DNA from: Nitrospirota bacterium
Lineage (GTDB): Bacteria > Nitrospirota > Nitrospiria > Nitrospirales > UBA8639
Assembly: GCA_003695915.1 (NCBI GenBank)
Contig: RFGF01000101.1
Span: 1 to 38,242 of the forward strand
Reading direction: 5' to 3'
DNA length: 38,242 nt
The notes beneath the pieces are model-generated. The model saw only the letters and a list, made by a program, of their open reading frames with translations, did not search any database and was not told where the DNA came from. A program made the translations under genes and the position numbers. Shown in pieces: positions 2,072-34,007 of this stretch. Numbering within the stretch: position 1 is the first letter of the stretch; every line of letters begins with the position of its first letter.

Positions 2072-4048
2072 ATGACTCAAGATCTCTCAACAACAATGAC
2101 AAAGGAGATGTCCTCCCTCGTCCATGTTAGGTGCGAGGATGGGAAGAGCCAGACGCTCCCGGCAGGGCTTAGCGCACGCGAAGCCTATCAGCGCATCAAA
2201 GGAGAGGTCCCAGCCGATGCCTTAGCTGTCAAAATTAACGGGATTCCGAGGGATTGGAATACAATCATTGAAGAAGATGCGACCCTAGAACCGATTAGTT
2301 TTGCTTCTCCAGAAGGAAAAGAAATTTATCGGCACAGTAGCGCGCACCTTATGGCGCAAGCGGTGAAAGAGTGTTTTCCCTCAGCCAATCTGACCATCGG
2401 TCCTCCCATTGAGGAAGGCTTTTATTACGATTTTGCGTTCGAACGGTCGTTTACGCCAGAAGATTTGGAACGCATTGAGCAAAAAGCCAAAGCCCTTATC
2501 GAAGCCGATCTTCCCATTACCCGACACGAAATGAGCAAGACCCAAGCTATCGAACTGTTTCGTCAACGCGGAGAGCGGTATAAGGTCGAACTGCTGGAAG
2601 GTATCCCGGATGACACAGTTTCTCTTTACCAACAAGGGGAATTTGTGGATTTGTGCCGAGGACCGCATGTGGAATCCACAGGACGCATTAAAGCCTTTAA
2701 GGTGTTGTCCAGCGCTGGAGCATATTGGCGCGGCGATGAACGCAATCCGATGTTGCAACGGATTTACGGCACGTCTTTTCCCTCACAGGAAGAGCTGGAT
2801 GCCCATTTGGCCAAATTAGAAGAAATCAAGCGGCGGGATCACCGAAAGTTGGGAAAGGAACTCGACCTCTTCAGCATTCAAGAAGACATTGGACCGGGAT
2901 TGATCTTATGGCATCCCAAAGGGGCGCGCGTCCGGCTGGTGATCGAAGATTTTTGGAGAATCCAACATCTTCGGCGCGGCTATGAACTCGTGTACTCGCC
3001 GCACATTGCTCGACTAGATTTGTGGAAAACGAGTGGGCATCTTGACTATTACCGCGAAAATATGTTTGCACCGATGACCGTGGAGTCGTCCGAATATCAA
3101 TTGAAGCCCATGAATTGCCCATTTCATATTATGCTGTACAAGACCCATTTGCGGAGCTATCGGGATCTTCCCATTCGGTACGGCGAGCTCGGCACGGTAT
3201 ATCGGTACGAGCGCTCGGGCGTTCTGCATGGCTTGTTGCGTGTGCGAGGCTTCACGCAGGATGATGCCCATATTTTTTGTCGTCCCGATCAAATCGCGCA
3301 AGAAGTGAAACAGGTATTGGAGTTTATGACGGAGGTCTTACGAACCTTTGGGTTCGAAAACTGTGAAATGTATTTATCAACTAAGCCGGACAAAGCGGTG
3401 GGGACGGACGAACAATGGGAGCAGGCCACGCTGGCGCTGGCCACGGCCTTGCAGGAGACTGGATTTGCTTACGAAGTGGACCCTGGCGAAGGAGTCTTTT
3501 ATGGTCCCAAGATCGATGTTAAAATCCGTGACGGCTTGGGTCGCTTGTGGCAATGCTCCACCGTCCAAATCGATTTTAACAATCCACAGCGATTTGGTCT
3601 GAGCTTCATCGGCGAGGATGGAAAACCGCATCAGCCGATCATGATCCATCGTGCGCTGTTGGGCTCGATCGAGCGGTTTTTTGGTGTGCTGCTTGAACAT
3701 TACGCCGGAGCATTCCCTGTCTGGTTGGCACCTGTACAGGCTCATGTTTTGCCGATCACGAACAAGCAGCATGATTATGCCTGTGCGGTTGCGGAGCAAT
3801 TGAGACAAGCGGGGTGTCGAATCGAGCTAGACTTGCGGAATGAAAAAGTAGGTCTTAAAATCCGGGATGCAGAAAAAGCCAAGATTCCGTACATGTTGAT
3901 CGTGGGGGAACGTGAGCGTCAAGCCCAGAGCGTTGCTGTGAGGAAGCGGAATGGACAGGATTTGGGAACCATGACGATTGCCGAGTTTCGGGACCTTGTG
4001 CGTCAAGACGAGCCTCCTGTGCTGAGAGGTGCTACGCTTTCCGAATGA
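2072..4048 (+). CDS. thrS: Threonine--tRNA ligase
   Basis: 658 residues, usual length for bacterial ThrRS. It attaches threonine to tRNA-Thr in the cytoplasm. Domain order: TGS (about 15-75); the editing/SAD domain opening with HSSAHLMAQAVKECFP; then the class II catalytic core with MNCPFH (zinc Cys), VYRYERSGVLHGLLRVRGF (motif 2) and HRALLGSIERFFGVLLEHY (motif 3); and an anticodon-binding domain from about 560. ATG 2072 is preceded only by a weak AAAG. A second in-frame ATG at 2108 is abutted by AAAGGAG with no spacing, so the start is slightly uncertain. It is the first gene of thrS-infC-rpmI-rplT, and its stop overlaps the infC start (ATGA). Confidence 0.97.
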   Translation: MTQDLSTTMTKEMSSLVHVRCEDGKSQTLPAGLSAREAYQRIKGEVPADALAVKINGIPRDWNTIIEEDATLEPISFASPEGKEIYRHSSAHLMAQAVKECFPSANLTIGPPIEEGFYYDFAFERSFTPEDLERIEQKAKALIEADLPITRHEMSKTQAIELFRQRGERYKVELLEGIPDDTVSLYQQGEFVDLCRGPHVESTGRIKAFKVLSSAGAYWRGDERNPMLQRIYGTSFPSQEELDAHLAKLEEIKRRDHRKLGKELDLFSIQEDIGPGLILWHPKGARVRLVIEDFWRIQHLRRGYELVYSPHIARLDLWKTSGHLDYYRENMFAPMTVESSEYQLKPMNCPFHIMLYKTHLRSYRDLPIRYGELGTVYRYERSGVLHGLLRVRGFTQDDAHIFCRPDQIAQEVKQVLEFMTEVLRTFGFENCEMYLSTKPDKAVGTDEQWEQATLALATALQETGFAYEVDPGEGVFYGPKIDVKIRDGLGRLWQCSTVQIDFNNPQRFGLSFIGEDGKPHQPIMIHRALLGSIERFFGVLLEHYAGAFPVWLAPVQAHVLPITNKQHDYACAVAEQLRQAGCRIELDLRNEKVGLKIRDAEKAKIPYMLIVGERERQAQSVAVRKRNGQDLGTMTIAEFRDLVRQDEPPVLRGATLSE

Positions 4049-4629: not shown

Positions 4630-4833
4630 ATGGCTGAACAAAAACTCAAAAATCACTCTGGAGCGAGTAAACGCTTTAAGTGGACTGGCCGAGGAAAATT
4701 AGTCAGGCGGCGAGCGGGCATGCGCCATATTCTGACAACCAAGGCGCGAGATCGAAAGCGTAGGCTGGGACGATCAATGCCTTTGAGCAAGGTCGATGCG
4801 AAGGCCGTTGAGAAATTGCTTCCATATCGGTAG
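4630..4833 (+). CDS. rpmI: 50S ribosomal protein L35
   Basis: 67 residues, very basic, with the family pattern HSGASKRFKWTGRGKLVRRRAG, a central basic stretch and a C-terminal LLPYR. ATG 4630 follows AAGGAT at suitable spacing. It lies in the conserved infC-rpmI-rplT order, 57 bp after infC. Confidence 0.96.
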   Translation: MAEQKLKNHSGASKRFKWTGRGKLVRRRAGMRHILTTKARDRKRRLGRSMPLSKVDAKAVEKLLPYR

Positions 4834-4887
4834 GCATGGAAGTTTTCAGCAAGCTAGTGTCGAGTAACGAGAGGAGCCGCGAAGATT

Positions 4888-5259
4888 ATGCCGCGAGTCA
4901 AAGGTGGACCTAAGACACGACAACGCCGCAAGAAACGTCTGAAGCTAGCTAAAGGGCAATATGGAGCCAAAAGCCGACTCTTTCGGACCGCGACAGAATC
5001 GGTCGATAAAGGTCAGGCGTACGCTTATATCGGCCGGCGTCAGCGGAAGCGAGATTTCCGTCGCCTCTGGATTGCCAGAGTGAGCGCAGCCGTTCGTGCG
5101 CACGGCTGGACATACAGTCGATTCGTCAATGCATTGAAGCAGGCCAAAATTGAGTTAAATCGTAAGATGCTCTCAGAAATGGCCATTCGTGACCCCGAGG
5201 GATTTTCTCGCCTCATTGCTCACGTCCAACCACAGCACGCGAGCTCAGCGTCACAATAA
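4888..5259 (+). CDS. rplT: 50S ribosomal protein L20
   Basis: 123 residues, normal L20 length, starting MPRVKGGPKTRQRRKKRLKLAKG and containing GRRQRKRDFRRLWIARVSAA. L20 is needed for early 50S assembly and in many bacteria represses this operon by binding its mRNA. GAGAGGAG lies upstream of the ATG. In the usual bacterial arrangement pheS-pheT would follow; here the gene ends 8 bp from the stop codon of an oppositely oriented pheT, with no room for a conventional terminator. Confidence 0.97.
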   Translation: MPRVKGGPKTRQRRKKRLKLAKGQYGAKSRLFRTATESVDKGQAYAYIGRRQRKRDFRRLWIARVSAAVRAHGWTYSRFVNALKQAKIELNRKMLSEMAIRDPEGFSRLIAHVQPQHASSASQ

Positions 5260-5267
5260 TCCTGTCT

Positions 5268-6968
5268 TTAAGCTGGGCTGATCAGCTTGTCGCAGTGAAG
5301 TTCCACTGCGGCGATAGGCATAGTAATTTGCCAGGCTTCCAGCACTTCCGGGTGAAGTTCACCGATCACCCCTATTGCCTGCCCCTCGTAGACGATTTGT
5401 CCGACGCGCCCCTCCAAATAAGAAGGGTGTACGATGGGTTCTAGACGATAGGTCTTCAGTAAATAATACAATAACACATCTAACACCGCATGGATTTCGG
5501 AGAAGTTAGCGGTGGCAGACGCCAGCAATAGGGCAAGATGCGTCTTGGTCTCGGATCCAAGCTCTGCTCGAGGGTCGGGAGAGGCAACCTCTCCGATTTC
5601 AAAGAGTTTGTGTGGATAAAAAGCACGAGGGCTGGTTGCCTCGACACGAAGAAGGCAGGGCAAAATGGCAGAGCGCAGGCAAGCATAACTAAGAGACAGG
5701 GGATTAGCGACTTCTACGACGGCTTCGTGTTCGCTCTCTGTTAGGCGCATTCGCTCGATCAACTCATCTCGGGCCATGAGGATATTCGAAAAAATTTCCT
5801 GAAAGCCGAATCCGATCATCAACGTGCGGATTTGATCCGAAAGTTGTTCGATCTGAGAGAGCGCTCCGACCGTAAATTGGGTGGGCATCAGTGGTTGGAA
5901 TGCATCGTAGCCTCTGCTGATTGCCACGTCCTCGGCGACATCGACCGCATGCATGAGATCATCTCGATAAGGGGGCGGGGTCACCGATAGGGTGTGTCGG
6001 GTCGCTTTGACATGGTGCCCATAGGATCGGAGAGCGGCTTCGATGGCTTCCGTTCCCAACGCCATGCCCAATGCCCGTTCGATCTCGCTGGCCCGCACTC
6101 GTTGAGGCCTGGCTATGTTGAATGGCGTTCGGACAATGGTTCCCACCTCGGTCGCATAGGGATACACCACATCCACCGGCTCAATGGAGGCCCCTCGATC
6201 TGCCAAATTCGTCGCCAAGATGTTGAGAGTCAAGAGAACCATCCGGAGATCGGTGCCCGTCACTTCCAGCAACAAATCGGTGTCGCCAACGCGCACTTCG
6301 CCGATGTCCCGGCTGTTGATGATGGGAGGAAAGGACAGAATTTGGCCTTCCTTGTCCCAAAAAAGAGGAAATTTTTCATGGCCGCTGAGAATATGGCCGT
6401 ATTCGACCCCTTTGGGATGGACGGCCAAGATTTCCTCGAGCGTCATCTTTTCAGAGAAGCCGAGCGGCGTGAACCGCACTTCAGTGGGCTTGACGAGTCC
6501 ATACGTCAAAGGAAAGGCGAGAGGGCTCAAACGGTAGATGCCGATGGACACGGTTTGTCGTTTGCGGCCGAAAATCTCGGCCAGCTTTTCTTGGGTTTGA
6601 ATCAATTGAGTAAGCCCTGCCTCTGTGACCTGATATCCGACTGCTCCGCAGGCAGCGATATAAGGCCGAACGGACTCTGTTTCGGGCAGGACAAGCACAC
6701 GGCGTTTAATGCGACCTTTTGTCGACCAAAAGGGGTAGACGGGCGGAGTATTGGTCAGTGCAATCCGAATTTGTCTGGCAATGCCTTCCACGCACCACAG
6801 ATCCGGACGATTGCTGTCTTGGAGCTCAACGCGCAATTCGCCGGTTGATGAAAGGTAGTCCTTCAGTTCACCTTTCACAAGCGGGAGCCACGCTTCGATG
6901 TCGGGCAGCGAAGCCGATCGCCCAAGCAGCGTTTGGAGATCAGCGTGGGAAAAGGAAATTGTCGGCAT
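5268..6968 (-). CDS. pheT: Phenylalanine--tRNA ligase beta subunit, archaeal/eukaryotic type
   Basis: 566 residues. Bacterial PheT is usually near 800; archaeal and eukaryotic cytosolic beta subunits are 550-590. Signature blocks of the short type are present: IQTQEKLAEIFGRKRQTVSIG, HPKGVEYGHIL, LSFPPIINSRDIGEV and TGTDLRMVLLTLNILATNLADRG, then the B5 domain and the catalytic-like C-terminal domain. There is no N-terminal EMAP/OB tRNA-binding extension and no C-terminal anticodon-binding domain as in the bacterial form. It lies 17 bp downstream of pheS. The type call rests on remembered family patterns; a tree would settle its origin. Confidence 0.93.
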   Translation of the reverse strand: MPTISFSHADLQTLLGRSASLPDIEAWLPLVKGELKDYLSSTGELRVELQDSNRPDLWCVEGIARQIRIALTNTPPVYPFWSTKGRIKRRVLVLPETESVRPYIAACGAVGYQVTEAGLTQLIQTQEKLAEIFGRKRQTVSIGIYRLSPLAFPLTYGLVKPTEVRFTPLGFSEKMTLEEILAVHPKGVEYGHILSGHEKFPLFWDKEGQILSFPPIINSRDIGEVRVGDTDLLLEVTGTDLRMVLLTLNILATNLADRGASIEPVDVVYPYATEVGTIVRTPFNIARPQRVRASEIERALGMALGTEAIEAALRSYGHHVKATRHTLSVTPPPYRDDLMHAVDVAEDVAISRGYDAFQPLMPTQFTVGALSQIEQLSDQIRTLMIGFGFQEIFSNILMARDELIERMRLTESEHEAVVEVANPLSLSYACLRSAILPCLLRVEATSPRAFYPHKLFEIGEVASPDPRAELGSETKTHLALLLASATANFSEIHAVLDVLLYYLLKTYRLEPIVHPSYLEGRVGQIVYEGQAIGVIGELHPEVLEAWQITMPIAAVELHCDKLISPA

Positions 6969-6985
6969 CGGTCAAGGAACACGCG

Positions 6986-8542
6986 TTACGGAAACTGTCC
7001 GCGCATAGTCCGGATCGCTTCCAAATCGGCGGTGAACAAATCACGGATATCATGAATCCCCAAGGCGACCATCGCCATTCGGTCAAGCCCGAGGCCCCAG
7101 GCGATGACGGGAACATGGACCCCGAGAGGAATTGTCACTTCTGGCCGAAACAATCCGGCTCCTCCGAGCTCCATCCATCCGAGCTTCGGATGGCGTACGT
7201 GAAGTTCCACCGAGGGCTCGGTGAACGGAAAATAGGCAGGAAACACTCGAATTTCTTGCGCTTGCGCCATTTCCGTTGCAAAAAGTTGCAAGAGCCCCAA
7301 CAGGGTTCGAAAATGAATGTCCTCGCCGAGGACGATGCCTTCGACTTGGAAAAAATCGGTTGCATGCGTGGCGTCCACTTGATCGTACCGAAAACATCGC
7401 GCAATGGAAAAATATTTTCCTGGAATCCGAGGATTGGATGCGAGGGTTCGAGCGGAGACGGCGGTTCCCTGACTTCGCAGAATGAGGCGTTGCGCTCGAG
7501 ATTTGTCGTACCGGTATCGCCATCCTCGAGAACCGGTTTCTCCGCCATGCTCGTGCACGGCTGCGACACGCGATAAAAACGGCTCGGGAGAGGAAGTCGC
7601 ATGTGTGGGATGCTTGACGAAATAGACATCGTGAATAGCCCGGGCCGGATGGAATTGGGGCATGAACAGCGCATCCATGTTCCAAAATTCGGTTTCCACG
7701 AGCGGGCCACGCATTTCTTGAAAGCCCATGCTGATCAGCTTGATTTTGACAACATCCAGAAACTCGCGATAGGGATGACGCCGTCCGATCGCTAACCGTG
7801 GTGGGCGCAAAGTAATCGTATATTTGCGGAAGCGATAGTTGCGCCATGAGCCATCTTTCAACATCTCCGGTGTTAGCTGCGAGACTTCTTCCTTGGGCAT
7901 GGCGTGCACGTGTTCGGCGAGCGTTCGGCCTTGATCTGTCAATAGATAGGCACGAATGGTGCGATCTTCGATCCGAAAGGGTTCATTCGTGTTGCCGCGT
8001 TTCACGGCGTAGAGTTTGATCAGGGATTGGATGGCCGGGGGAAATGCTTCAAGAGGTCGGCTCGACTCGCCAAGCTGCTGAAGCACGGCTCGCAATTGCT
8101 GGCAGAGCGAGCTGGGCAGGCCGGTAGCCTCAAGGGAGCCCCCGGGGGCTAATTGCACCGATCCTTCTTTTTTCAAGAGCCCGATCGCTCGGCTCAGTGC
8201 ATTGGGTGGAAATGGGCTTTGGGTTTGTAATGCTTGAACGGTGAGGCGAACGTGACGGTGGTGGGCTTCCTCGATCTGCCGGAGAATCCATTCGGGAGGC
8301 GATGACTCCTGGAGGTAACGAAACCCAACCTCCGTCAAGCTGACGATCGGAATGACGGTTTCTGATTCGAGCCGGACCAACGATTTCGTCTGAAGCCAGC
8401 CGAGCGCCATACTGATTTGCGAGGGCTCGAGACCGGTCGATTGGACGAGATCCGAGTCGGTTTGCGGCGCGTCTTTCTGGGCTAGCGCCAGGAGAACTTT
8501 GATCTCTAAGGGATGTAAAGTTTCTATGGTGGTAAGGTCCAT
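6986..8542 (-). CDS. pheS: Phenylalanine--tRNA ligase alpha subunit, archaeal/eukaryotic type
   Basis: 518 residues against 330-350 in ordinary bacterial PheS. The first ~200 residues look like tandem winged-helix DNA/tRNA-binding domains, as in eukaryotic cytosolic alpha subunits (about 508 residues). The class II core has the archaeal/eukaryotic wording: FHPARAIHDVYFV, WRYRYDKSRAQRLILRSQGTA, FRYDQVDATHATDFFQVEG (motif 2), PAYFPFTEPSVEL, ELGGAGLFRPE and AWGLGLDRM (motif 3). With PheT it forms the alpha2-beta2 enzyme that charges tRNA-Phe. Its start is 6 bp from the rpe stop, so it is translated from the rsmB-rpe-pheS-pheT message. Confidence 0.94.
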   Translation of the reverse strand: MDLTTIETLHPLEIKVLLALAQKDAPQTDSDLVQSTGLEPSQISMALGWLQTKSLVRLESETVIPIVSLTEVGFRYLQESSPPEWILRQIEEAHHRHVRLTVQALQTQSPFPPNALSRAIGLLKKEGSVQLAPGGSLEATGLPSSLCQQLRAVLQQLGESSRPLEAFPPAIQSLIKLYAVKRGNTNEPFRIEDRTIRAYLLTDQGRTLAEHVHAMPKEEVSQLTPEMLKDGSWRNYRFRKYTITLRPPRLAIGRRHPYREFLDVVKIKLISMGFQEMRGPLVETEFWNMDALFMPQFHPARAIHDVYFVKHPTHATSSPEPFLSRVAAVHEHGGETGSRGWRYRYDKSRAQRLILRSQGTAVSARTLASNPRIPGKYFSIARCFRYDQVDATHATDFFQVEGIVLGEDIHFRTLLGLLQLFATEMAQAQEIRVFPAYFPFTEPSVELHVRHPKLGWMELGGAGLFRPEVTIPLGVHVPVIAWGLGLDRMAMVALGIHDIRDLFTADLEAIRTMRGQFP

Positions 8543-8548
8543 CTGGCG

Positions 8549-9226
8549 TTAGACTGAAATCGTCTCTCCTGCCATGCGGAGCTGCGAGATGGTTTTCGAG
8601 TAATCATTGCTGGTGAAGATGGCTGATCCAGAGACCAAGACGTCCGCTCCTGCTCGAACGATCGGGCCGGCCTTTGCGAGATTGACGCCGCCGTCTACTT
8701 CTAACAGCGCCTGCGAGTGAACATGATCCAGCATCCGACGGACACGGGCAATTTTATCGAGACAAGACTCGATGAAGGGTTGCCCGCCGAACCCGGGATT
8801 CACCGACATGACCAACACGATGTCCACCGAGGTCAAAATTTCTTCCAACGTGACCACTGACGTCGCCGGGTTGAGCGTGACGCCGGCTTTCATTCCATGT
8901 TCGTGAATGCGCTGAAGTGTGCGGTGAAGATGGGGACAGGTTTCGACATGGACAGTCAGATGGTTGGCGCCCGCCCGGGCAAACTCGCCGATCAATGCAT
9001 CGGGGTTCGTCACCATGAGATGGACATCCAAGGGCAAATCCGTTACGGATCGTAAAGCCTCCACAATGGGCGGGCCTGCCGTGAGATTGGGGACAAAATG
9101 CCCATCCATGACATCCACATGAATCCAGTCGGCCCCGGCGGCTTCAACCTGTTTGACGGCATCGGCGAGATGGCCAAAGTCTGCCGACAAGATCGAAGGA
9201 GCAATCAGCACCGGTCGCAGGCTCAT
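8549..9226 (-). CDS. rpe: Ribulose-phosphate 3-epimerase
   Basis: 225 residues, normal length. It interconverts D-ribulose-5-phosphate and D-xylulose-5-phosphate (pentose phosphate or Calvin cycle) in a TIM barrel. Visible motifs: APSILSADFGHL, DWIHVDVMDGHFVPN (metal His and Asp), LDVHLMV, MSVNPGFGGQ (phosphate loop) and LEVDGGV (second metal Asp). Its ATG overlaps the rsmB stop by 4 bp (ATGA). Confidence 0.97.
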   Translation of the reverse strand: MSLRPVLIAPSILSADFGHLADAVKQVEAAGADWIHVDVMDGHFVPNLTAGPPIVEALRSVTDLPLDVHLMVTNPDALIGEFARAGANHLTVHVETCPHLHRTLQRIHEHGMKAGVTLNPATSVVTLEEILTSVDIVLVMSVNPGFGGQPFIESCLDKIARVRRMLDHVHSQALLEVDGGVNLAKAGPIVRAGADVLVSGSAIFTSNDYSKTISQLRMAGETISV

Positions 9227-10638
9227 GATGGCTTTTCCTTTTGCAGGCGCGCGGCGAAAAATCCGTCCATATTCATGGCCAAACTGACGAAATACCCTTC
9301 GGGATCACACAACGCTTGCCCCGACGCTGGCAACCACGGTTCGACCGATTCCAATAGAAATTCCGGATGATCACGGAGAAAGCGCTCAATGAGTTCTCGG
9401 GTTTCTTCCGGCTCGATCGAGCAGGCACTATAGACCATGAGTCCACCAGGTCTCAAGAGCCGAGCGGCGCTGAGCAACAACTGATACTGGAGACGCTGTG
9501 CTCGCTGAATCGAGTCAGGGCTCTTGAACCATTTTCCTTCCGGATGGCGGCGAAGGACGCCGAACCCGGAGCAAGGTGCATCGATTAAGATGCGATCGAA
9601 GAGGTGCTCGAAAAGGCGTGAGCGTTCGGAATGATCTTCTGGAGAAAACCGGCCCGGCTCGGGGGTAAGAGCAAGATCACCGCAAACTTCGACGACATTG
9701 GTCACGCCCAGCCGTCGACAATTTTCCGCGAGTTTCCTCAATCGGCAAGCATCTCGGTCAACGGCTACAATAAGCCCTTGGTTGCGCATGAGTTGGGCCA
9801 TGTGCGTGGTTTTTCCCCCTGGCGCGGCACAGGCATCCAACACCCGATGGCCCGGCTGAACGTCGAGCAGGAGAGGAATGAGCTGAGCGGCTTCGTCTTC
9901 CGCATAGCACCAGCCCTCTTGCCAGACGTCGAGTTGGGACAGCGATCCGCAATGGTCGAGCGTAAGACCGACCGGACTGACGGCCGTTTCGTGCACACGA
10001 ATGCCTACATGAGCCAATCGCTTAGCGAGTGTCTCCCGCGTGCATCGCAACGTATTGGTTCGCAAGGTGATGGGAGGGATCTGAATCGTGTGGTCGCAAA
10101 GACGCGCGACAGTGGCAGGATCCTGACGAGAGAGCCATCGATCGACGATCCATTGGGGACAGGAGTAACGGATACTCAAGGCCGAACTCGGCTCCCCTTC
10201 GAGGTCGGGCCCCAAAGGGGGGGGCGTCCGGGCAAGTGCCCTCAGTACGGCGTTGACAAATCCCCGCCAATCTCGCCCACCGATTCGGCGCGCCATCGCC
10301 ACCGCCTCGAAGGTAGCTGCGGAATGAGGAATGCGATCCAAATAGAGCATTTGATAAGCCGCGAGGCGAAGAATCATGGCTACGACTAACGGAAGACGGG
10401 CCATCGGCCGATCAGCGACGTGATTGAGCCGCCAATCCAATGTGAGCAAGAATCGCAGGACGCCGTAAACCAATGCATGGACAAGGGCTCGGTCTTGGAC
10501 GGACAAGTTCGTGCGCTCGAGTTCTGCGTGGAGCACCTCATCGGCGGATTGTCGCCGTCGAAACACGGACATCAAAATCGACAAAGCTACCGATCGCGCC
10601 GTCTGCCGGGCTGGAAGTGATGCTACGCGAAGCGCCAT
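9223..10638 (-). CDS. rsmB: 16S rRNA (cytosine(967)-C(5))-methyltransferase RsmB
   Basis: 471 residues. A NusB-like RNA-binding domain (about 10-140) precedes a Rossmann methyltransferase domain. The SAM loop DACAAPGGKTTHMAQL is at 268-283. Both cysteines of the m5C family are present: C356 in DAPCSGFGV and the nucleophile-type C406 in YSACSIEPEE. It methylates C967 of 16S rRNA (E. coli numbering) during 30S maturation. It follows pdxA by 85 bp on the same strand and is coupled to rpe by a 4-bp overlap. The ribosome-binding site is weak (GGAAAA). Confidence 0.95.
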   Translation of the reverse strand: MALRVASLPARQTARSVALSILMSVFRRRQSADEVLHAELERTNLSVQDRALVHALVYGVLRFLLTLDWRLNHVADRPMARLPLVVAMILRLAAYQMLYLDRIPHSAATFEAVAMARRIGGRDWRGFVNAVLRALARTPPPLGPDLEGEPSSALSIRYSCPQWIVDRWLSRQDPATVARLCDHTIQIPPITLRTNTLRCTRETLAKRLAHVGIRVHETAVSPVGLTLDHCGSLSQLDVWQEGWCYAEDEAAQLIPLLLDVQPGHRVLDACAAPGGKTTHMAQLMRNQGLIVAVDRDACRLRKLAENCRRLGVTNVVEVCGDLALTPEPGRFSPEDHSERSRLFEHLFDRILIDAPCSGFGVLRRHPEGKWFKSPDSIQRAQRLQYQLLLSAARLLRPGGLMVYSACSIEPEETRELIERFLRDHPEFLLESVEPWLPASGQALCDPEGYFVSLAMNMDGFFAARLQKEKPS

Positions 10639-10723: not shown

Positions 10724-11770
10724 TCAAGGGTTCATCGACGAACGGCGTTCCGCAGCCAGACGAGCCCCCAGCGCCATGGCTTCCAGGAGGCTAGCAGGAT
10801 CGGCTACTCCTTTCCCTGCAATGTCGTAGGCTGTACCATGATCCACGGAAGTCCGAATAATTGGGAGGCCCACCGTGAGATTGACACATCGGCCAAAGGC
10901 CACTGTTTTTAACGCAATGAGTCCTTGATCGTGATACATCGCAACAATCCCGTCGAACGCTCCGCGCACGGCCTTTCCGAACAACGTGTCCGCTGGCAAC
11001 GGGCCCGTACAATCAATCCCCTTGGCTTGGGCCTCCCGGACGGCTGGCACAATGTATCGTTCCTCTTCGTCACCGAAGAGTCCGTTTTCTCCAGCGTGTG
11101 GATTCAATCCAGCGACGCCGATGCGCGGATGCGTCAGTTTAAAGATATCACGCAATCCGGTCGAAGCCAATTCGATGGCCTCCACGATGGCGGTCGCCGA
11201 AAGCAGGTCGGGGAGTTTTCGAAGTGCGACATGCGTCGTGACGAACAAAACTTTAAGTCCACCCCCGACAATCATCATCCCGACACGTTTGGCCCCGGTA
11301 AGGTCTGCGAGCATTTCAGTATGTCCCGGATAGTCATAGCCGGCGAGTTGCATGGCTCGCTTATTGATCGGAGCGGTCACGATGGCATCGACTATCCCTG
11401 CCTGTGCCAGGCGCACGGCAGTGTGAATGCACTGAACCGCCGCTCGGCCGCCAGCTGCGCTGGGCTGCGCTGGAGGAATGGGTGGCAATGGCGCGTCAAA
11501 CGGATCGAGAATCGGGAGAGTCCTGGGTGCGGAGTTGAAGACATTCACTGTCAAATCCTGCTTGGTCAGAGGCCTGATGGTCAGCGAAGCGCCTTGTGCC
11601 AAGGCCGCTTGCTCCATGACGATACGGGACGCCAGCACGACGGGTCGGGCATAAGTCCAAATGGATTCAGTGCGCAAGGCCTTGATGATAATCTCGGGTC
11701 CAATCCCGGCAGGATCGCCCATGGTAATGGCGAGAATCGGAAGGCTGTCGCGTGAAAGATGCTGGGGCAT
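10724..11770 (-). CDS. pdxA: 4-hydroxythreonine-4-phosphate dehydrogenase
   Basis: 348 residues from the ATG at 11770. A longer in-frame start at 11869 would overlap larC and add an unrelated leader. PdxA oxidises 4-phosphohydroxy-L-threonine in the DXP-dependent vitamin B6 pathway. Seen: AITMGDPAGIGPEI at the N-terminus; the metal-binding histidines in YPGHTEM, TTHVALR and YHDQGL; and NPHAGENGLFGDEE. It starts 25 bp after larC and presumably shares its transcript. No other pdx gene is in the window. Confidence 0.96.
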   Translation of the reverse strand: MPQHLSRDSLPILAITMGDPAGIGPEIIIKALRTESIWTYARPVVLASRIVMEQAALAQGASLTIRPLTKQDLTVNVFNSAPRTLPILDPFDAPLPPIPPAQPSAAGGRAAVQCIHTAVRLAQAGIVDAIVTAPINKRAMQLAGYDYPGHTEMLADLTGAKRVGMMIVGGGLKVLFVTTHVALRKLPDLLSATAIVEAIELASTGLRDIFKLTHPRIGVAGLNPHAGENGLFGDEEERYIVPAVREAQAKGIDCTGPLPADTLFGKAVRGAFDGIVAMYHDQGLIALKTVAFGRCVNLTVGLPIIRTSVDHGTAYDIAGKGVADPASLLEAMALGARLAAERRSSMNP

Positions 11771-11795
11771 AGTCTGATACCGCGCTGGCGAGTGA

Positions 11796-13028
11796 TTATA
11801 ATTTTGATTTCGCCGATGAACGGCGTGCAGTGGGTTGTTCGAACCGTGAGCGCTGATGGTGCTTGGCAAAATTGTGCAAAGCTTCTTCCATGATCATGTG
11901 GAGCGGCTGGCCGGTTCGCTCGGCGATGGCTCGACAATCTTCATACTCGGGCATGGCCTTGCGGAATCCGTTGATCATAGCGGTTTTGATTCTGACCGAT
12001 CCGTTTCGTACGCGGACGGTGTCGATCCGCCGCGGCAGGACATACCGCCAGACCTCTTGCACACGGACTCCAAGGGTGGTGGACTCGCGAAACAAGACAT
12101 CAAGAAGGCTGTGGACCGAGGGTTGCGAAGCCAGCACAGTCACAACGGTTCCGGGTCGCCCCCATTTCATAATGACCGGTGTCAGGCACACGTCCAGGGC
12201 TCCTCGTGCGAAGAGCTGTTCGATCAGAAAGGGATAGGCTTGGGGATTGAGATCATCCACGTTGGTTTCGAGCTGCACGATGGGCTCGAGCGTTCCATAA
12301 CGAGATGCTCCCCGATATGAGCGAAATACGCGTAGGACATTGGGCCACCCTTCGGGATCGGCTGTCCCAGCTCCGTATCCGACGGCTGTCGGAGTAAGGG
12401 GAGGAAAGGCGCAGAACTCTCGGGTCAGTTGCGTCGCGATCCCTATCCCTGTCGGTGTCGTCAGCTCCAAACGCGGTCCCGAGGAAAAGACGGGCACCTC
12501 TTTCGCTAATTGTGCGACGGCCGGAGAGGGAACGGGAAGCGTACCATGAGCCGTCTGCACGGTTCCTGATCCGAGATTGATCGGGGTACAAGACACGGTC
12601 TTGACGTCAAGACTCTGACAACCGAGAAAGGCCCCAACAATATCCACGAGAGAGTCGATCACGCCAATTTCGTGGAAATGAACCTTATTCGGGCTTACGC
12701 CATGAATATGCCCCTCTGCCTCGGCGAGGCGGGAAAAGACGGCGAGCGAGTGGTGTTTTACATAGGACGATAAACGGCTTTGCGAAAGCAATCGTCGAAT
12801 GGCTGCAAACGAGAGCGGCTTTGTGAACCCTTCGCGGACCCGGATATCGACTTTTGTGGCCTGAATATTGCTACGCATGACTTTCTGCGCTTTGACGGTA
12901 TAGCCTTTCACGGGAAGTTGACGAAGCCCTTGCTTCAATTCCGTCAACGAGAGTCCACAATCAATGAGCGCGCCGAGGAACATGTCTCCGCTGATGCCCG
13001 AAAAACAATCAAGGTGAAGATGAGTCAC
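11796..13028 (-). CDS. larC: Nickel-pincer cofactor biosynthesis protein LarC
   Basis: 410 residues from a GTG at 13028, chosen because AAGGGGG lies just upstream and the protein then begins VTHLHLDCFSGISGDM, as LarC proteins do. The open frame reaches 13100 without family similarity. LarC inserts nickel, using CTP, into the thiolated pyridinium precursor to complete the pincer cofactor of lactate racemase and related LarA enzymes. Other markers are EAEGHIHGVSPNKVHFHEIG and the C-terminal regulatory-like domain from about 280. In some species larC is split into two frames by a programmed frameshift; here it is one continuous frame. larB is nearby; larA and larE are not in the window. Confidence 0.93.
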   Translation of the reverse strand: MTHLHLDCFSGISGDMFLGALIDCGLSLTELKQGLRQLPVKGYTVKAQKVMRSNIQATKVDIRVREGFTKPLSFAAIRRLLSQSRLSSYVKHHSLAVFSRLAEAEGHIHGVSPNKVHFHEIGVIDSLVDIVGAFLGCQSLDVKTVSCTPINLGSGTVQTAHGTLPVPSPAVAQLAKEVPVFSSGPRLELTTPTGIGIATQLTREFCAFPPLTPTAVGYGAGTADPEGWPNVLRVFRSYRGASRYGTLEPIVQLETNVDDLNPQAYPFLIEQLFARGALDVCLTPVIMKWGRPGTVVTVLASQPSVHSLLDVLFRESTTLGVRVQEVWRYVLPRRIDTVRVRNGSVRIKTAMINGFRKAMPEYEDCRAIAERTGQPLHMIMEEALHNFAKHHQRSRFEQPTARRSSAKSKL

Positions 13029-13083
13029 CCCATCCCCCTTGCGTTGATTTCCGACTTCACGTGTATGGTCGACATGCTGGCCT

Positions 13084-13092
13084 ATCATACCA
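13084..13092 (-). promoter_or_regulatory. Possible extended -10 promoter for larC operon
   Basis: On the minus strand TGG-TATGAT (TATGAT at 13089-13084, preceded by TGG at 13092-13090) gives an extended -10 with 5/6 match. No convincing -35 lies at 16-18 bp. The transcript would start near 13077, about 50 nt ahead of the larC GTG. Confidence 0.4.
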
Positions 13093-13124
13093 GAGGTCAA
13101 TCAATGGGGAAACGAACCCGGTCG

Positions 13125-13153
13125 TTGACGAGGCCGAAAGGCTATGGTATCCG
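13125..13153 (+). promoter_or_regulatory. Possible promoter for the exported acidic protein gene
   Basis: TTGACG (13125-13130, 5/6), a 17-bp spacer, then TATCCG (13148-13153) with a TGG extended -10 element. The start would be near 13160, about 76 nt before the ATG at 13236. It is divergent from the larC promoter. Confidence 0.35.
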
Positions 13154-13235
13154 AGCTCGTTTGCCTGAAGTGGATGGGCGGTTCTTGTGCGATCATGTAC
13201 GTTCAACCGGTATCCCGAAGAAACGAGGTGGTTTC

Positions 13236-14078
13236 ATGAAGCGGTGTCCAATCCGAGCAATCGTCATCATCTGCGTGGTCGTCATGGGTATGAGCATCGT
13301 GGCCGAAGGGAAGCGGCGACGATCGGCTCCCCCTCCCATCACTATTATCGATGTGCGCACTGATCCAGATCCATTTCCCGTTGGAAATGGGATGCTGACG
13401 TTCACCGTGATGGTCAAATTGCCCAGCTCGGTTGAAGAAGATCACGTGCTGGAAGTATCGTCGTTGGTGACGTCGCCATCGAAACGCTCGATGCGCTTTC
13501 TCTTCGAGCGCATGCCGGTTCACGCCGTTTCCGCCGATGGGGGACAGCGCATCGTTCGAGTCGTTCTCTCATGGGATGGGAAAGATCAAACACAACAGTA
13601 TGTAACGCCAGGAACCTATCATTACGACATTCGCGCAAAACTGATGGAAGACCGCGGGTATGGATACCAAATGGTATTGATCTCTCGGCATGCACGGGGG
13701 ACCCTAGAGGTGGTCAATGCTCCGGATCGGGATGGGCTTCCTCGTCAGGGCTTCGAACCGTTCGACGCGGAAGATGAACCGCCCCTGGAGAATCTGACGG
13801 AAGAAGAAGCCCTCGAAGAAGATCAAGCAGATCGTTCCGACCGCGATACATCTTTACCGCTTCTCCTCCATTCCGAATCGACCGAGAGGAGTGGGGCCGC
13901 CCCGACATTGGTGGAGCCTCGACCAGCTTCCCCCATTCCGTCGTCATCGGGGGAGAGTCTGGGATTCTCCGAGCAGGTTGATCCGGTGCGCGAGGCAGCC
14001 GGCTCCGAATCCATTGTCGATATTGACGACCCCGATGCCGCTCGAACAGGCGTTGAGCATAGTGAGCAAGGGCGCTAA
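13236..14078 (+). CDS. Exported acidic protein of unknown function, 3' end antisense to larB
   Basis: 280 residues from ATG 13236, which follows GAGGTG; the frame is open further upstream without coding character. Residues 1-25 form a signal peptide (MKRC, then a hydrophobic core ending VAEGK). Residues 35-155 contain alternating beta-type stretches (TVMVKLPSSV, RIVRVVLSWDG, PGTYHYDIRAKL) suggesting an Ig-like or beta-sandwich domain. From about 165 the chain is low-complexity and rich in Glu, Asp, Ser and Pro, probably disordered. No family recognised. Its last 135 bp overlap the 3' end of larB on the other strand. It separates larC from larB. Confidence 0.6.
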   Translation: MKRCPIRAIVIICVVVMGMSIVAEGKRRRSAPPPITIIDVRTDPDPFPVGNGMLTFTVMVKLPSSVEEDHVLEVSSLVTSPSKRSMRFLFERMPVHAVSADGGQRIVRVVLSWDGKDQTQQYVTPGTYHYDIRAKLMEDRGYGYQMVLISRHARGTLEVVNAPDRDGLPRQGFEPFDAEDEPPLENLTEEEALEEDQADRSDRDTSLPLLLHSESTERSGAAPTLVEPRPASPIPSSSGESLGFSEQVDPVREAAGSESIVDIDDPDAARTGVEHSEQGR

Positions 14079-14717
14079 GCCACCGAAGTGAGCTCCATAC
14101 CCTTGACTGGTGGGAACCGCGACGATCGGTCGATCGATGAGACCCCCGACGACACTGGGAAGTACCCCGTCCATGCCGGCAACGACTATCACTACGCGGG
14201 CGGCATGAAGGTGTTCCTGCCGATCGAGCAGGCGATGAAGCCCCGCGACGCCCACATCGTAAAACGTCTGGACACGACTGCCCATGATCTCAGCGGTGAC
14301 TTTCGCCTCTTCCGCCACCGGAATATCCGAGGTGCCAGCGGTCAAGACGACGATGTTTCCAATCGCGGAGTCCGTCGATGACAGTTTGGGGACGGCCACG
14401 ATTCGTCCGGCCTCATGATAGACGGCACGACGGCTTACCCGTTTGAGTGCATGCGCGACATCCGGCTGAACGCGAGTGGCCAGTAGGGCGTTCCCTGTTT
14501 TTAATAATTCCCGAGCGATTCGTATGATTTGATGTTTGGTTTTCCCCTCGCAGAAGATGACCTCAGGAAATCCTTGTCGGATAGCGCGATGGTGATCCAA
14601 CGAGGCAAATCCTAAGTTTTGATAGGGAAGCAGGCGAAATTTTTGGAGCGCTTGGGATACAGACAGTCGCCCTTTGCGCACATTCTCCAATAGCGTTTGG
14701 AGCTGGTCTCGATCCAT
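13944..14717 (-). CDS. larB: Nickel-pincer cofactor biosynthesis protein LarB
   Basis: 257 residues, usual length. LarB carboxylates nicotinic acid adenine dinucleotide and hydrolyses the AMP, the first step to the nickel-pincer cofactor. It belongs to the PurE/AIR-carboxylase superfamily: FCEGKTKHQI near residue 55, then VLTAGTSDIPVAEEA, GMDGVLPSVVGGL, AVPTSQGYGA and the terminal NIDNGFGAG. AAAGGA lies about 12 bp upstream of the ATG. It follows gpsA by 64 bp on the same strand. Confidence 0.95.
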   Translation of the reverse strand: MDRDQLQTLLENVRKGRLSVSQALQKFRLLPYQNLGFASLDHHRAIRQGFPEVIFCEGKTKHQIIRIARELLKTGNALLATRVQPDVAHALKRVSRRAVYHEAGRIVAVPKLSSTDSAIGNIVVLTAGTSDIPVAEEAKVTAEIMGSRVQTFYDVGVAGLHRLLDRQEHLHAARVVIVVAGMDGVLPSVVGGLIDRPIVAVPTSQGYGAHFGGLAPLLTMLNACSSGIGVVNIDNGFGAGCLAHRINLLGESQTLPR

Positions 14718-29493: not shown

Positions 29494-29708
29494 CGCATCG
29501 CTCACAGCCGTCGGCATGGGTATTCCCTCTGGGCTGTCTGACGTTGTCCGCCAAGATTTACTTATCGCTGCATGGCGATCCCGACGGCTTTTCCTCAAAA
29601 AATGGTTTGCCTTTTTATCCAGGAAAGCCTAGGATTTTCACGAAGCACACGCATCGATCGTTCGAGAGGCCTTCCATAATCCATACTTGCACGGAAAGGA
29701 GAAAGGCC

Positions 29709-32066
29709 ATGTTGCTCCCAACACGCCCCCCTCACAGAGACAGTGGAACATGGAAGGCTCTCGCTTTTTTGACGTTGGTAAGCCTGGTCGGGTGGAGTTC
29801 GGTGTTGCTGGGCACTCCGCTTCTGGTCGAGGCGGAGAACGGCCCTGTGGTGTCTGGCGACGTTCAGATCAAACAGGGGTTTGAGCATTTTCAGTATGGC
29901 CAGTTCAAGGAAGCAGCCACAGTATGGGCTGAAGCGGCATGGAGGTATGAAGCAACCCAACGGGTGTCCGAACAAGCTTATGCGTTGGTCTATTTGGCGC
30001 GAGCACTGTACCAACTGGGCCAATACGACGATGCCAATGCGAGTTTGCGACAAGCGTGGGGATTGGCGAAACAACAAGGCGATAGGCGATTCTTGGCCAT
30101 TCTTCTGGAGCAGGCAGGCAACGTCTCGCTTGCCGCAGGACAGGTGGATCAGGCGGTTCGGTCGTTACAAGAAGGGTTATCATTCGCACGAGAAGAAGAC
30201 GATCCGACCCTTGTCGCTGCACTATTGAATGATCTGGGAAACGCCTTGGCCAGTCAAGGCAAGAATGACGAAGCCCTAGGCGCCTATATCGAAGCTGCCA
30301 TTCTCGCTGAGGCCATGGGCGATGACACGTTGGCGACGAGATCGCACATCAATACAGCCATGGCGTCCATTCGCGAACATCGCTATGAGGAAGGCAAGGA
30401 ACGTTTGGACTTCGCGGTCAAGCGCATGAGATATCTTCCCTCGACTCATGAGCATGCCTCAAGTTGGCTGAATATTGGATTAGCCTATGTGGAATTGCTT
30501 CGTTCTTCCTCTGACCGACATAGCGACGTGATGGCTCCTGCTGCCCAGGCCTTTCGCTCGGCTGCCGCCATGGCAAAGGCCATTGGCGATGCCCGTGCGG
30601 AATCGTATGGATGGGGATTTCTCGGAAATTTGTATGAACGAGCGCATCAGCATCGCGAGGCTCTGCGGTTAACGGCGCGAGCCATTCTTGTGGCTCAGCG
30701 GATCACCATGCCGGAGGCGCTCTATCGATGGGAATGGCAACAGGGACGAATCTATCGCGCGCTCCAGCGATTTCCGGAAGCTATACATGCATATCAACGA
30801 GCTGTGGACACGGTTCAGCCTATGCGTCGTGAATTGACTGTTGCCACCAGTGACGGACGCCTCTCGTTTCGAGAATCGGTAGGTCCTTTATTTTTCGAGT
30901 TTGCTGAATTGTTGCTCCAGCGGACCGAGGCGGTTCCCAGTGAGCGCGAACGGCAGGCGTTGTTGAGGCAGGCCCGACAAACGATCGAAGGGTTTAAGGC
31001 TGCTGAACTGCAGGACTATTTTCGCGATGATTGTGTCGAAGCGGTGCGATCGCGGATCGCCACGCTGGATACGGTATCGGACGCCACAGCAGTGCTCTAT
31101 CCCATTATTTTCCCCGACCGCATAGAGATGCTCGCGAGTTTGGGTGCGAGAATCGTGCGCGTGACCATTTCGATCGACCAAGTACAATTGATCGCTCGAA
31201 CCAATCAGTTCCGTCGATTTCTCGAAAAACGCACCACGCGTCAATACCTTCCTCATGCGCAAAGCCTGTATGATTTGTTGATCCGGCCATTGGACCACTA
31301 TTTCCGTGCGCATGGCATTGACACGCTTGTGATTGTCCCCGATGGGGTGCTTCGGACAATTCCGTTTGGGGCCCTTCATGATGGCAAGCAGTTCCTTGTT
31401 GAAATGTATGCCATGGCTGTGACGCCGGGATTGACGTTAACCGATCCTCAGCCCATCGATCGGCAACGTATCCACCTCTTGACGGTGGGATTGACGGAAG
31501 GGGTGCAAGGGTTCCCCCCGCTCCCATTCGTCAACCAGGAAGTGAGCGCCCTTCAGAGGCTATATGGCGGTCAGCTGCTTTTAAATCGTCAATTCCTTGT
31601 TTCCAACTTAGAACGCACCCTCAAAAATGAACAATTTACAATAGTGCATGTGGCTTCCCATGGACAATTTGAACCCGAAGTCACGAACTCGTTTATCCTG
31701 GCCTTTGATGATCGACTCACCATGGATAAACTCGATGAATTGATTGGACTGTTTCAATTTCGCGAGACACCGCTTGATTTGCTTGCGTTGAGTGCCTGTG
31801 AAACAGCAGTGGGGGATGATCGAGCGGCTTTGGGGCTGGCAGGCCTGGCGATTAAGGCTGGAGCTCGGAGTGCGCTGGCCACCCTCTGGTTGGTCAACGA
31901 TCGCGCAGCGTCAGCCTTGATTAACGAGTTTTATGTCCAACTTCGACAGCCATCCCTGTCCAAGGCTATGGCGCTTCAGCGCGCGCAACAAAAGCTGATT
32001 GCCCATCCGACGTATCAGCATCCCGGATACTGGTCGCCCTTTTTACTGATCAATAATTGGCTGTAA
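29709..32066 (+). CDS. TPR-CHAT caspase-like peptidase, membrane-targeted or exported
   Basis: 785 residues from ATG 29709, set by AAGGAG at good spacing; the frame is open 165 bp further upstream without coding character. A signal or anchor segment (ALAFLTLVSLVGWSSVLLGTPLL, about 16-38) precedes some eight tetratricopeptide repeats (about 50-400; for example ARALYQLGQYDDANASLRQAW). Then comes a C-terminal CHAT domain (about 480-785) with both catalytic residues: His651 in VHVASHGQF and Cys697 in LALSACETAVGDD. It ends with the family-typical PGYWSPFLLINNW. CHAT proteases are separase/caspase-like cysteine peptidases; TPRs usually bind partners. The cyclase gene follows by 15 bp. Confidence 0.92.
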   Translation: MLLPTRPPHRDSGTWKALAFLTLVSLVGWSSVLLGTPLLVEAENGPVVSGDVQIKQGFEHFQYGQFKEAATVWAEAAWRYEATQRVSEQAYALVYLARALYQLGQYDDANASLRQAWGLAKQQGDRRFLAILLEQAGNVSLAAGQVDQAVRSLQEGLSFAREEDDPTLVAALLNDLGNALASQGKNDEALGAYIEAAILAEAMGDDTLATRSHINTAMASIREHRYEEGKERLDFAVKRMRYLPSTHEHASSWLNIGLAYVELLRSSSDRHSDVMAPAAQAFRSAAAMAKAIGDARAESYGWGFLGNLYERAHQHREALRLTARAILVAQRITMPEALYRWEWQQGRIYRALQRFPEAIHAYQRAVDTVQPMRRELTVATSDGRLSFRESVGPLFFEFAELLLQRTEAVPSERERQALLRQARQTIEGFKAAELQDYFRDDCVEAVRSRIATLDTVSDATAVLYPIIFPDRIEMLASLGARIVRVTISIDQVQLIARTNQFRRFLEKRTTRQYLPHAQSLYDLLIRPLDHYFRAHGIDTLVIVPDGVLRTIPFGALHDGKQFLVEMYAMAVTPGLTLTDPQPIDRQRIHLLTVGLTEGVQGFPPLPFVNQEVSALQRLYGGQLLLNRQFLVSNLERTLKNEQFTIVHVASHGQFEPEVTNSFILAFDDRLTMDKLDELIGLFQFRETPLDLLALSACETAVGDDRAALGLAGLAIKAGARSALATLWLVNDRAASALINEFYVQLRQPSLSKAMALQRAQQKLIAHPTYQHPGYWSPFLLINNWL

Positions 32067-32081
32067 TGCCCGCAGGTTGAT

Positions 32082-34007
32082 ATGAGATGGCTCCGTCAAT
32101 GTTGGAGTTCATCTATAACCTGGGGGCTAGCTATGAGCCTTGTGATCGGAGCCCTCGTTGTGGGCGTTCGTACCAAGGGATGGTTAGAGCCGTTGGAATT
32201 GGCGGCCTATGATCTCAGCCTTGCGATTGAACCAAAGCCTTCGGATTACGCTCCCCCTATCACGCTGATTACGATTACGGAAGCCGGCATTCAACGGCTG
32301 CGACACTGGCCACTCACCGATGCCATGCTCGCCACAGTCTTGCAGCTTTTGCTGGATCTCAGTCCACGGGTTATCGGCTTTGATATATACCGTGACCTCC
32401 CGATCCCGCCGGGACACGCGCAGTTCAATGCCTTGGTACGTGAAAATCGGAACGTGGTAGGCATTATGAAGTATGGCCCGGTAGCGAAGGGTGGGATCGC
32501 ACCGCCGCCTGTACTTAAGGAAAGTGATCAAATTGGATTTAGCGATATGGTGGTTGATGCCGATGGACTGGTTCGTCGCGGCCTTTTTTTTCTTGATGAT
32601 GGTCACACCATTAGTTCCTCATTTGCGCTAGTCGTGGCGCTCCGGTATCTCGAAGATGAGGGGATTGGCCTTGTCCCTGATCCTCTGGTTCCCACCTCCC
32701 TCAAAATCGGGCGAACGACGTTTCCGCCGTTGGAACCCAACGATGGGGCATATGTGGAGGCTGATACCCGAGGCTATCAGTTTCTGTTGGATTTCCCCCA
32801 CGGAACGTTCATGTTCCCTACTTATACCGCAGAGGATGTGCTAGATGGAAAGATCCCGATGGAGGCCATTCGGGATCGCATCGTGCTTCTCGGCGTCGTT
32901 GCCGAAGGCGTGAAAGATTACTTTTGGATGGCGACGCATCATGACGGGTGGCGGGTTCAGCGCGTGGCTGGCGTCAAGCTGCATGGCGACATGGTGAGCC
33001 AAATTGTTCACGCCGCATTGCTGGGGAATCCTCCACGACGATTTTGGGACGATCGAGGGGAATCGAGCTGGATCATAGGCTGGGCGGCACTCGGAAGTGT
33101 CAGCGGATTGCTTGTGGGTGGGATCTGGTCTTTTATCGCCGTCGCGTTCGGCGGATTCTTGCTTATCGGCACCCTCGTCCTATGGGCTTTTGTTCTCGGT
33201 TGGTGGCTCCCATCCGTTCCAGCGATGCTGGCATGGGGTGGAGCGCTCAGCCTCATGACGGCCTACAAGGTCAATAAAGAAAAAAGGGAACGACAACTTG
33301 TTGAGCGCGTATTTTCGCCCTATGTAGCGCCTGAAGTAGCCCAGGCGATTTGGCTGAATTGCAAGCAACTTTTCGATCGTGGAAGGCTACGTCCGCAAAT
33401 GTTGGTCGTGACAGTGCTATTTTGTGACTTGGAAGGCTTTACGCCAGTTGCCGAAAGCATGGATCCTGAACGATTGATGGAGTGGCTGAATGCGTACATG
33501 GATGAGATGACCAAAGTCATTATGGATCACGGTGGAGTGATCGATGACTATTATGGAGACGCCATCAAAGCCAATTTTGGCGTGCCCTTTCCTCGTGCGA
33601 ACGAAATGGCGATTCGAGATGACGCAATCAATGCCGTGCGATGTGCCGTTGCGATGGAACGCGCCATGAACGACATGCAGGCGAGATGGTGGGAAAATCA
33701 GTGGTCGGCACTGCGATTGCGGATCGGCATATGCACTGGATCGGTCATGGCTGGAAGTTTGGGCAGTGCCTGGAGGTTGAAGTATACGACAGTAGGGGAT
33801 ACCGTCAACATTGCTGCGCGACTCGAAAGTTTGCACAAAGAGTCGCAGGCCTCGTTTTCCGGGGAGCGAGTCTGCCGCATTTTGATCGCTGAGAGTACCA
33901 AGCGGTACGTAGAGGGGCTCTGGTCTCTCTACGATCTCGGGGAAATTCAGGTCAAAGGGAAACAACAGGTCATTCATGCTTACCGCGTCGTCCCGTCGGC
34001 AGGTTGA
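32082..34007 (+). CDS. CHASE2-domain class III adenylate/guanylate cyclase
   Basis: 641 residues. A first transmembrane helix (about 14-30) leads into a periplasmic CHASE2 sensor (about 40-330: ITLITITEAGIQRLRHWPL, DRIVLLGVVAEGVKDYF, GVKLHGDMVSQI). Three helices (about 335-405) follow, then a class III cyclase domain (about 440-620). Metal aspartates D449 (FCDLEGFTPV) and D493 (YYGDAIKANFG) and transition-state N576/R580 (GDTVNIAARL) are present. The Lys usually four residues before the second Asp is Asp489 (IDDYYGD), so nucleotide preference cannot be assumed. It lies 15 bp after the CHAT gene and is probably co-transcribed. It converges with the next gene. Confidence 0.93.
   Translation: MRWLRQCWSSSITWGLAMSLVIGALVVGVRTKGWLEPLELAAYDLSLAIEPKPSDYAPPITLITITEAGIQRLRHWPLTDAMLATVLQLLLDLSPRVIGFDIYRDLPIPPGHAQFNALVRENRNVVGIMKYGPVAKGGIAPPPVLKESDQIGFSDMVVDADGLVRRGLFFLDDGHTISSSFALVVALRYLEDEGIGLVPDPLVPTSLKIGRTTFPPLEPNDGAYVEADTRGYQFLLDFPHGTFMFPTYTAEDVLDGKIPMEAIRDRIVLLGVVAEGVKDYFWMATHHDGWRVQRVAGVKLHGDMVSQIVHAALLGNPPRRFWDDRGESSWIIGWAALGSVSGLLVGGIWSFIAVAFGGFLLIGTLVLWAFVLGWWLPSVPAMLAWGGALSLMTAYKVNKEKRERQLVERVFSPYVAPEVAQAIWLNCKQLFDRGRLRPQMLVVTVLFCDLEGFTPVAESMDPERLMEWLNAYMDEMTKVIMDHGGVIDDYYGDAIKANFGVPFPRANEMAIRDDAINAVRCAVAMERAMNDMQARWWENQWSALRLRIGICTGSVMAGSLGSAWRLKYTTVGDTVNIAARLESLHKESQASFSGERVCRILIAESTKRYVEGLWSLYDLGEIQVKGKQQVIHAYRVVPSAG

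Follow-up and report, generated by a model that had tools for sequence, protein, structure and literature searches.

In bacteria, the gene block thrS–infC–rpmI–rplT normally terminates in pheS–pheT, the genes of phenylalanyl-tRNA synthetase (PheRS). In the window (the whole stretch of 38 242 nucleotides analysed here, from a member of the Nitrospirota), the block is followed by pheT and pheS on the opposite strand, and the original prediction took both to be of archaeal/eukaryotic type. What kind of PheRS does this bacterium carry, how did it come to occupy the slot behind rplT, and with which tRNA-Phe does it work? The features of the locus are listed in table 1.

Table 1. The pheT–pheS locus of the window and its neighbours.
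Feature	Position	Strand	Evidence
thrS, 658 aa, first gene of the thrS–infC–rpmI–rplT block	2072..4048	+	ORF; same order in relatives
infC (translation initiation factor IF-3), 175 aa	4045..4572	+	ORF; conserved neighbour in relatives
rpmI (ribosomal protein L35), ends approximate	4636..4833	+	L35-like translation, frame 2 of 4640–4890
rplT (ribosomal protein L20), 123 aa	4888..5259	+	ORF; synteny
pheT, archaeal-type PheRS beta subunit, 566 aa	5268..6968	-	TIGR00471 492 bits; Pfam; trees
PheT modules: B1, B3/B4 editing region, B5, catalytic-like module
pheS, archaeal-type PheRS alpha subunit, 518 aa	6986..8542	-	NF003210 559 bits; PF01409 279.9 bits; AlphaFold model
rpe (ribulose-phosphate 3-epimerase), upstream of pheS, gap 6 nt	8549..9226	-	ORF, spacing
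rsmB (16S rRNA methyltransferase), 4-nt overlap with rpe	9223..10638	-	ORF, overlap, conserved order

The pheT and pheS reading frames are both intact and are separated by 17 nt. Their archaeal type is borne out by the family scores. PheS reaches 559 bits with NF003210/PRK04172 (cut-off 350), the match spanning nearly its full length, and PheT reaches 492 bits with TIGR00471 pheT_arch (cut-off 283) over positions 1–550. With the bacterial model TIGR00472 pheT_bact, PheT scores 118 bits, below the cut-off of 403, and thus falls outside the bacterial type; this similarity is one of common domains only. The blocks GLFRPE, FTEPSVEL, HPKGVEYGHIL and FPPIINS, quoted in the original prediction, are present. 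In the same prediction the EMAP and anticodon-binding domains of the bacterial enzyme were said to be missing, and this is also the case: a Pfam search of the window's PheT at E-values up to 10 found B5 and the catalytic-like domain and neither tRNA_bind (EMAP, B2) nor FDX-ACB (B8), both of which were recovered from the control, a complete bacterial-type PheT from this phylum (L090). PheT is 39% identical to the N-terminal half of Pyrococcus PheT.

The catalytic core of PheS (PF01409, 279.9 bits) begins at about residue 220. The AlphaFold model of residues 11–201 contains three helix–helix–helix–strand units, with pLDDT mostly near 90, and these modelled units match what is expected of three winged-helix-like domains; the N-terminal part also gives a weak Pfam match to MarR. 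A fold search with residues 251–518 matched the catalytic core only, the best hit being human cytosolic PheRS alpha (3l4g; Z 28.2, rmsd 7.0, 292 residues).

For the comparison of the editing region, the Pyrococcus positions other than N217 are those that we take, from work on Pyrococcus, to belong to the editing site. S211, N217 and T236 of Pyrococcus correspond to S212, N218 (in the PPIINS block) and T237 of the window's PheT. E235 stands for D234, as in human, and F203 for L202. Pyrococcus N217 is part of the B3/B4 editing site (PMC3275996). The residues for editing of Tyr-tRNA-Phe are mostly kept.

The PheS core is present as a single copy in the whole genome, which is 99% complete. No second PheS and no bacterial-type PheT were found in the rest of this genome; a bacterial-type pair there would have spoken against the original prediction. 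An EMAP-like match in a 742-aa frame (G000:C86:69136-69366) is probably the C-terminal domain of MetRS.

The distribution of the two PheRS types was examined in 296 genomes of the phylum by scoring PheT against the TIGR cut-offs. The archaeal-type PheT passes in 165 genomes and the bacterial-type PheT in 119; 12 genomes pass neither cut-off. Comparison of the two PheT tables for the 296 genomes reveals no family with both types. The archaeal type is found in families f1–f13, f16, f19, f20 and f37, including the whole of the window's class, where it is fixed; at least one half of the species sampled in the phylum have it. The bacterial type is found in families f14, f15, f17, f18, f21–f23, f25–f36, f38 and f39, and in f24 from a fragment only. 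In most of these families the bacterial-type PheT has about 690 aa, with the TIGR00472 match starting from about position 157, and the EMAP domain (tRNA_bind) is missing (e.g. L094, L098, L101 and others among L093–L105). The EMAP-less form occurs in f15, f21–f36, f38 and f39; the domain is kept in f14 (L090) and in one genome of f27 (L100). Mobile elements were also searched. A tblastn search of a plasmid collection with PheS gave low-identity partial matches, none covering more than 80% of the query, which as expected look like bacterial-type PheS, and viral contigs searched with PheT and the PheS core alignment gave no match.

Most bacterial-type genomes examined have the order thrS–infC–(rpmI)–rplT–pheS–pheT on a single strand (e.g. 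L095, L098, L099, L101, L102, L104 and L105); this canonical order is absent from the stretch examined in f14 and f17. In the window's order, in further families of its class and in f20, a divergent family, pheT–pheS occupies the same slot on the opposite strand. In the window, rplT and pheT are convergent and their stop codons lie 8 bases apart; f13 and f19 are also convergent, the distance from rplT to pheT–pheS reaching a few kilobases. Both rpe and rsmB are found next to pheT–pheS in the window's class, f19 has rpe, and rpe adjoins pheS in the window's class, f12 and f19. In the window, rsmB is probably the head of an rsmB–rpe–pheS–pheT run. The archaeal-type pair of f16 is located elsewhere. 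In both genomes of f37 (L406 and L407), it stands collinear with rplT and immediately behind it, which is the canonical bacterial slot. This collinear pair, together with the convergent slot of the other families, suggests that, in f37 at least, the native pair was replaced where it stood. Among the archaeal-type relatives that were examined, pheS and pheT are adjacent, consistent with the prediction that both subunits were swapped together.

Phylogenetic trees were constructed for PheT, for the PheS core with a bacterial-type outgroup, and for PheS + PheT (56 rows, with bootstrap); the last set is without spirochaetes and represents Thermococcales by half of one PheT only. PheS is separated from bacterial-type PheS with a support of 100 in the PheS core tree, and PheT groups with archaeal-type sequences, as the prediction required. 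The three trees agree on a single clade that unites the archaeal-type enzymes of the phylum with the enzymes of six Planctomycetota (100/100 in the PheS + PheT tree); the recovery of this same clade by PheS and by PheT also speaks for a joint swap. The split in the PheS + PheT tree separates this long-branched clade from every archaeal sequence sampled, from human and from further Planctomycetota enzymes that make up a second set. In the PheS core tree the clade is on the archaeal-type side, beside Bathyarchaeota and Methanosuratincola (support 92). The AU test does not reject a single clade of all archaea without the clade of the phylum (p 0.616), and does not separate a position inside the sampled archaea from one as sister to all of them. 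No donor group is therefore named, and the designation archaeal-type is firm; the prediction of an archaeal/eukaryotic-type enzyme holds for its archaeal part, not as specifically eukaryotic.

Archaeal-type PheRS of Planctomycetota is of two kinds, one on the archaeal side near Heimdallarchaeota (L287, L288, L290, L291, L294, L254 and L256) and the other in the window's clade (L289 and L296–L300); 16 of the 79 sampled genomes have an archaeal-type PheRS above the cut-off. A quick PheS tree in which Planctomycetota were paraphyletic was rejected: a better likelihood was obtained with the sequences of the phylum held together, so the branching order of Planctomycetota carries no weight.

The pair G27–C43 of tRNA-Phe is important for bacterial PheRS, according to work on E. 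coli. The E. coli enzyme uses U20, one of the bacterial identity elements named together with U59, and the enzymes of A. pernix and yeast use G20 (PMC9976931). Archaeal/eukaryotic PheRS–tRNA-Phe pairs and their bacterial counterparts are stated not to cross-react (PMC3275996). The tRNA-Phe of the window's genome, encoded outside the window on contig C37, has C20 and the pair C27–G43. Among the tRNA-Phe genes listed for the phylum there is no G20, base 20 being U or C. The bacterial signature U20 + G27 + C43 is present, among the tRNA-Phe listed, in 108 of 116 bacterial-type genomes, in 43 of 44 archaeal-type genomes outside the window's class, in 6 of 15 genomes of the window's class outside its order, and in one of 92 genomes of the order itself, as an extra gene in G271. 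The base at position 20 and the signature pattern indicate that no archaeal tRNA came along with the enzyme. Furthermore, the signature has been lost mostly where the bacterial enzyme is long gone; among the tRNA-Phe listed, it is lacking in 8 of the 116 bacterial-type genomes as well and is kept in many archaeal-type lineages. The genomes are related, so few independent events are being counted, and the loss in the window's order may be one change. Given the stated orthogonality and the use of G20 by enzymes of this form, set against the absence of G20 among the tRNA-Phe listed, the enzyme would have had to adapt.

Some exceptions to the general pattern were observed. The extra gene of G271, a genome of the window's family (G271:C52:5242-5290), is a second tRNA-Phe that carries the bacterial signature, either a contaminant or a second gene. 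Bacterial-type PheRS combined with a tRNA-Phe without U20 + G27 + C43 is found in G113, G158, G176, G217, G230, G248, G278 and G282.

The history of the enzyme was compared with a species tree based on rpoB, thrS, infC and rplT (unrooted, with reading frames picked by shared words). In this tree, 24 archaeal-type genomes (the window's class, f19 and f20) are on one side with a support of 98. Families f13, f16 and f37 fall among or beside bacterial-type lineages, f37 being sister to a bacterial-type group (99). For PheRS, f37 and f16 are sisters (100/100), nested together among the enzymes from the side of the window's class, f19 and f20. The species tree requires at least two to three changes of PheRS type, and one clean event is thus insufficient. 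An early acquisition with later passing-on within the phylum would be the simplest reading.

We consider it very probable that an archaeal-type pheST pair was transferred jointly, that the native pair was lost, that the new pair was then passed on inside the phylum, and that the host kept its own tRNA-Phe, which later drifted. Both genes would have arrived together from an archaeal-type source, probably before the split of the window's class, f19, f20 and f13. The incoming pair would have replaced the native pheST in function and in its position behind rplT. It may later have been handed on inside the phylum, including the putative exact in-place replacement in f37. We infer both the direction and the order of these transfers. 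The host would have retained its bacterial tRNA-Phe, and once the bacterial enzyme was gone, the recognition features of this tRNA could drift, most of all in the window's order. In the window's bacterium, pheS–pheT probably codes for the sole cytosolic PheRS, a predicted alpha2beta2 tetramer of archaeal/eukaryotic form. The alpha subunit would form phenylalanyl-adenylate and charge tRNA-Phe, and by analogy with the family the beta subunit would edit Tyr-tRNA-Phe through its B3/B4 region. As beta has no B8, tRNA is likely to be contacted by the N-terminal extension of alpha, whose three predicted winged-helix-like units probably replace B8 in this role, as in the family (PMC3275996).

Other histories were weighed against joint transfer. 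If the phylum had an archaeal-type ancestor, the bacterial type would have been regained by transfer in two clades (f14/f17/f18, and f15, f21–f36, f38 and f39). Such a history would account for bacterial-type lineages surrounded by archaeal-type ones in the unrooted species tree and for f13, f16 and f37 on the bacterial-type side. We find it rather unlikely, as the canonical order in most bacterial-type genomes examined is most simply ancestral and the enzymes of f16 and f37 nest among those of the window's class, as late transfers would. An even older origin, in which Bacteria once had both PheRS forms and the phylum kept the archaeal-like one, agrees with the AU test, which does not place the clade within the sampled archaea; its patchy distribution, the bacterial type in the canonical operon slot of sister families, the bacterial tRNA-Phe and the in-place swap of f37 make such vertical retention very improbable. 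The draft state of the genome is all that would suggest contamination or misassembly, by which archaeal genes were placed on the window's contig. This is refuted by the occurrence of the enzyme in 165 genomes, single-contig assemblies included, and by the bacterial genes that flank it on both sides.

The route of the transfer is less clear-cut. The enzyme may have come via another bacterium, from Planctomycetota or an unsampled spirochaete-type relative, the primary archaeal transfer having occurred elsewhere. Six Planctomycetota genomes belong to the same clade and have neither rplT nor infC in their gene context, and the clade as a whole is long-branched and apart from the sampled archaea. 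Against this, the trees leave the branching of f20, Planctomycetota and the rest unordered, so the direction could be either way, and the sample is without spirochaete or complete Thermococcales sequences. We regard this route as possible, at clearly less than an even chance. It is also conceivable, at somewhat less than even chance, that the enzymes of the phylum and of some Planctomycetota are a deep, bacteria-only branch of archaeal-type PheRS outside the sampled archaea. This branch would have overcome the assumed orthogonality by adapting to a bacterial tRNA-Phe without G20, whose bacterial identity set then decayed.

A replacement of this kind is already known in spirochaetes (Borrelia, Treponema, Spirochaeta), in which both PheRS subunits were exchanged for the archaeal form (PMC3191353); the original prediction already drew this likeness. 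The spirochaete subunits are also of archaeal form (alpha 513–528 aa, beta 514–573 aa), were acquired jointly, and replaced the bacterial pair, with relatives of the same phylum keeping the bacterial type. In the window's lineage, too, both subunits were replaced jointly and the bacterial pair was lost. The two cases differ in the phylum and in that the window's kind is common to some Planctomycetota; here, moreover, the landing site at rplT, the in-place replacement in f37 and the drift of the tRNA can be seen. What is added here is the extent of the replacement, its visibility in place and the tRNA drift. In the open-access literature, to which the search was confined (subscription papers lying outside it), we found no report of archaeal-type PheRS for the window's phylum or for Planctomycetota, which is no proof of novelty.

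With the archaeal/eukaryotic cytosolic enzymes (Pyrococcus 2cxi, human 3l4g; PMC3275996), the window's PheRS shares the N-terminal extension of alpha, with units predicted to be winged-helix-like, a short beta without EMAP and B8, and largely kept B3/B4 editing residues. It differs from them in its bacterial host, in a tRNA-Phe with U20 or C20 (no G20 among those listed) and in belonging to a separate, long-branched clade. Bacterial PheRS (TIGR00472; E. coli, Thermus) has the same reaction, heterotetramer and catalytic core, and in sister families the same slot behind rplT, but its alpha has about 340 aa with a coiled coil and its beta about 700–800 aa with B8, and it is absent from the window's genome. 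Archaeal-type synthetases in bacteria (TyrRS and TrpRS) are also described for CPR bacteria (PMC5370408), in which the tRNA identity is archaeal too, whereas the window's tRNA-Phe stayed bacterial.

The gene pheS is used as a phylogenetic marker and belongs to the marker set of PMC3636077. PheRS is essential, and in this phylum more than half of the species sampled carry a replaced marker. The phylum also offers a natural experiment, in which an archaeal-type synthetase works with a bacterial tRNA, sister lineages have the old enzyme, and the release of tRNA identity can be measured. This bears on the claimed orthogonality of archaeal and bacterial Phe systems, and in view of the stated lack of cross-reaction (PMC3275996) the natural combination of enzyme and tRNA is worth testing. 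Human cytosolic PheRS does not clear m-Tyr-tRNA-Phe (PMC3275996), from which an altered response to PheRS inhibitors and to meta-tyrosine is predicted here.

Other genes of the window include pdxA, larC and larB (nickel pincer cofactor synthesis), beside rsmB on the minus strand (10724–14717), and a TPR-like protein followed by a CHASE2–guanylate cyclase sensor protein (29544–34007).
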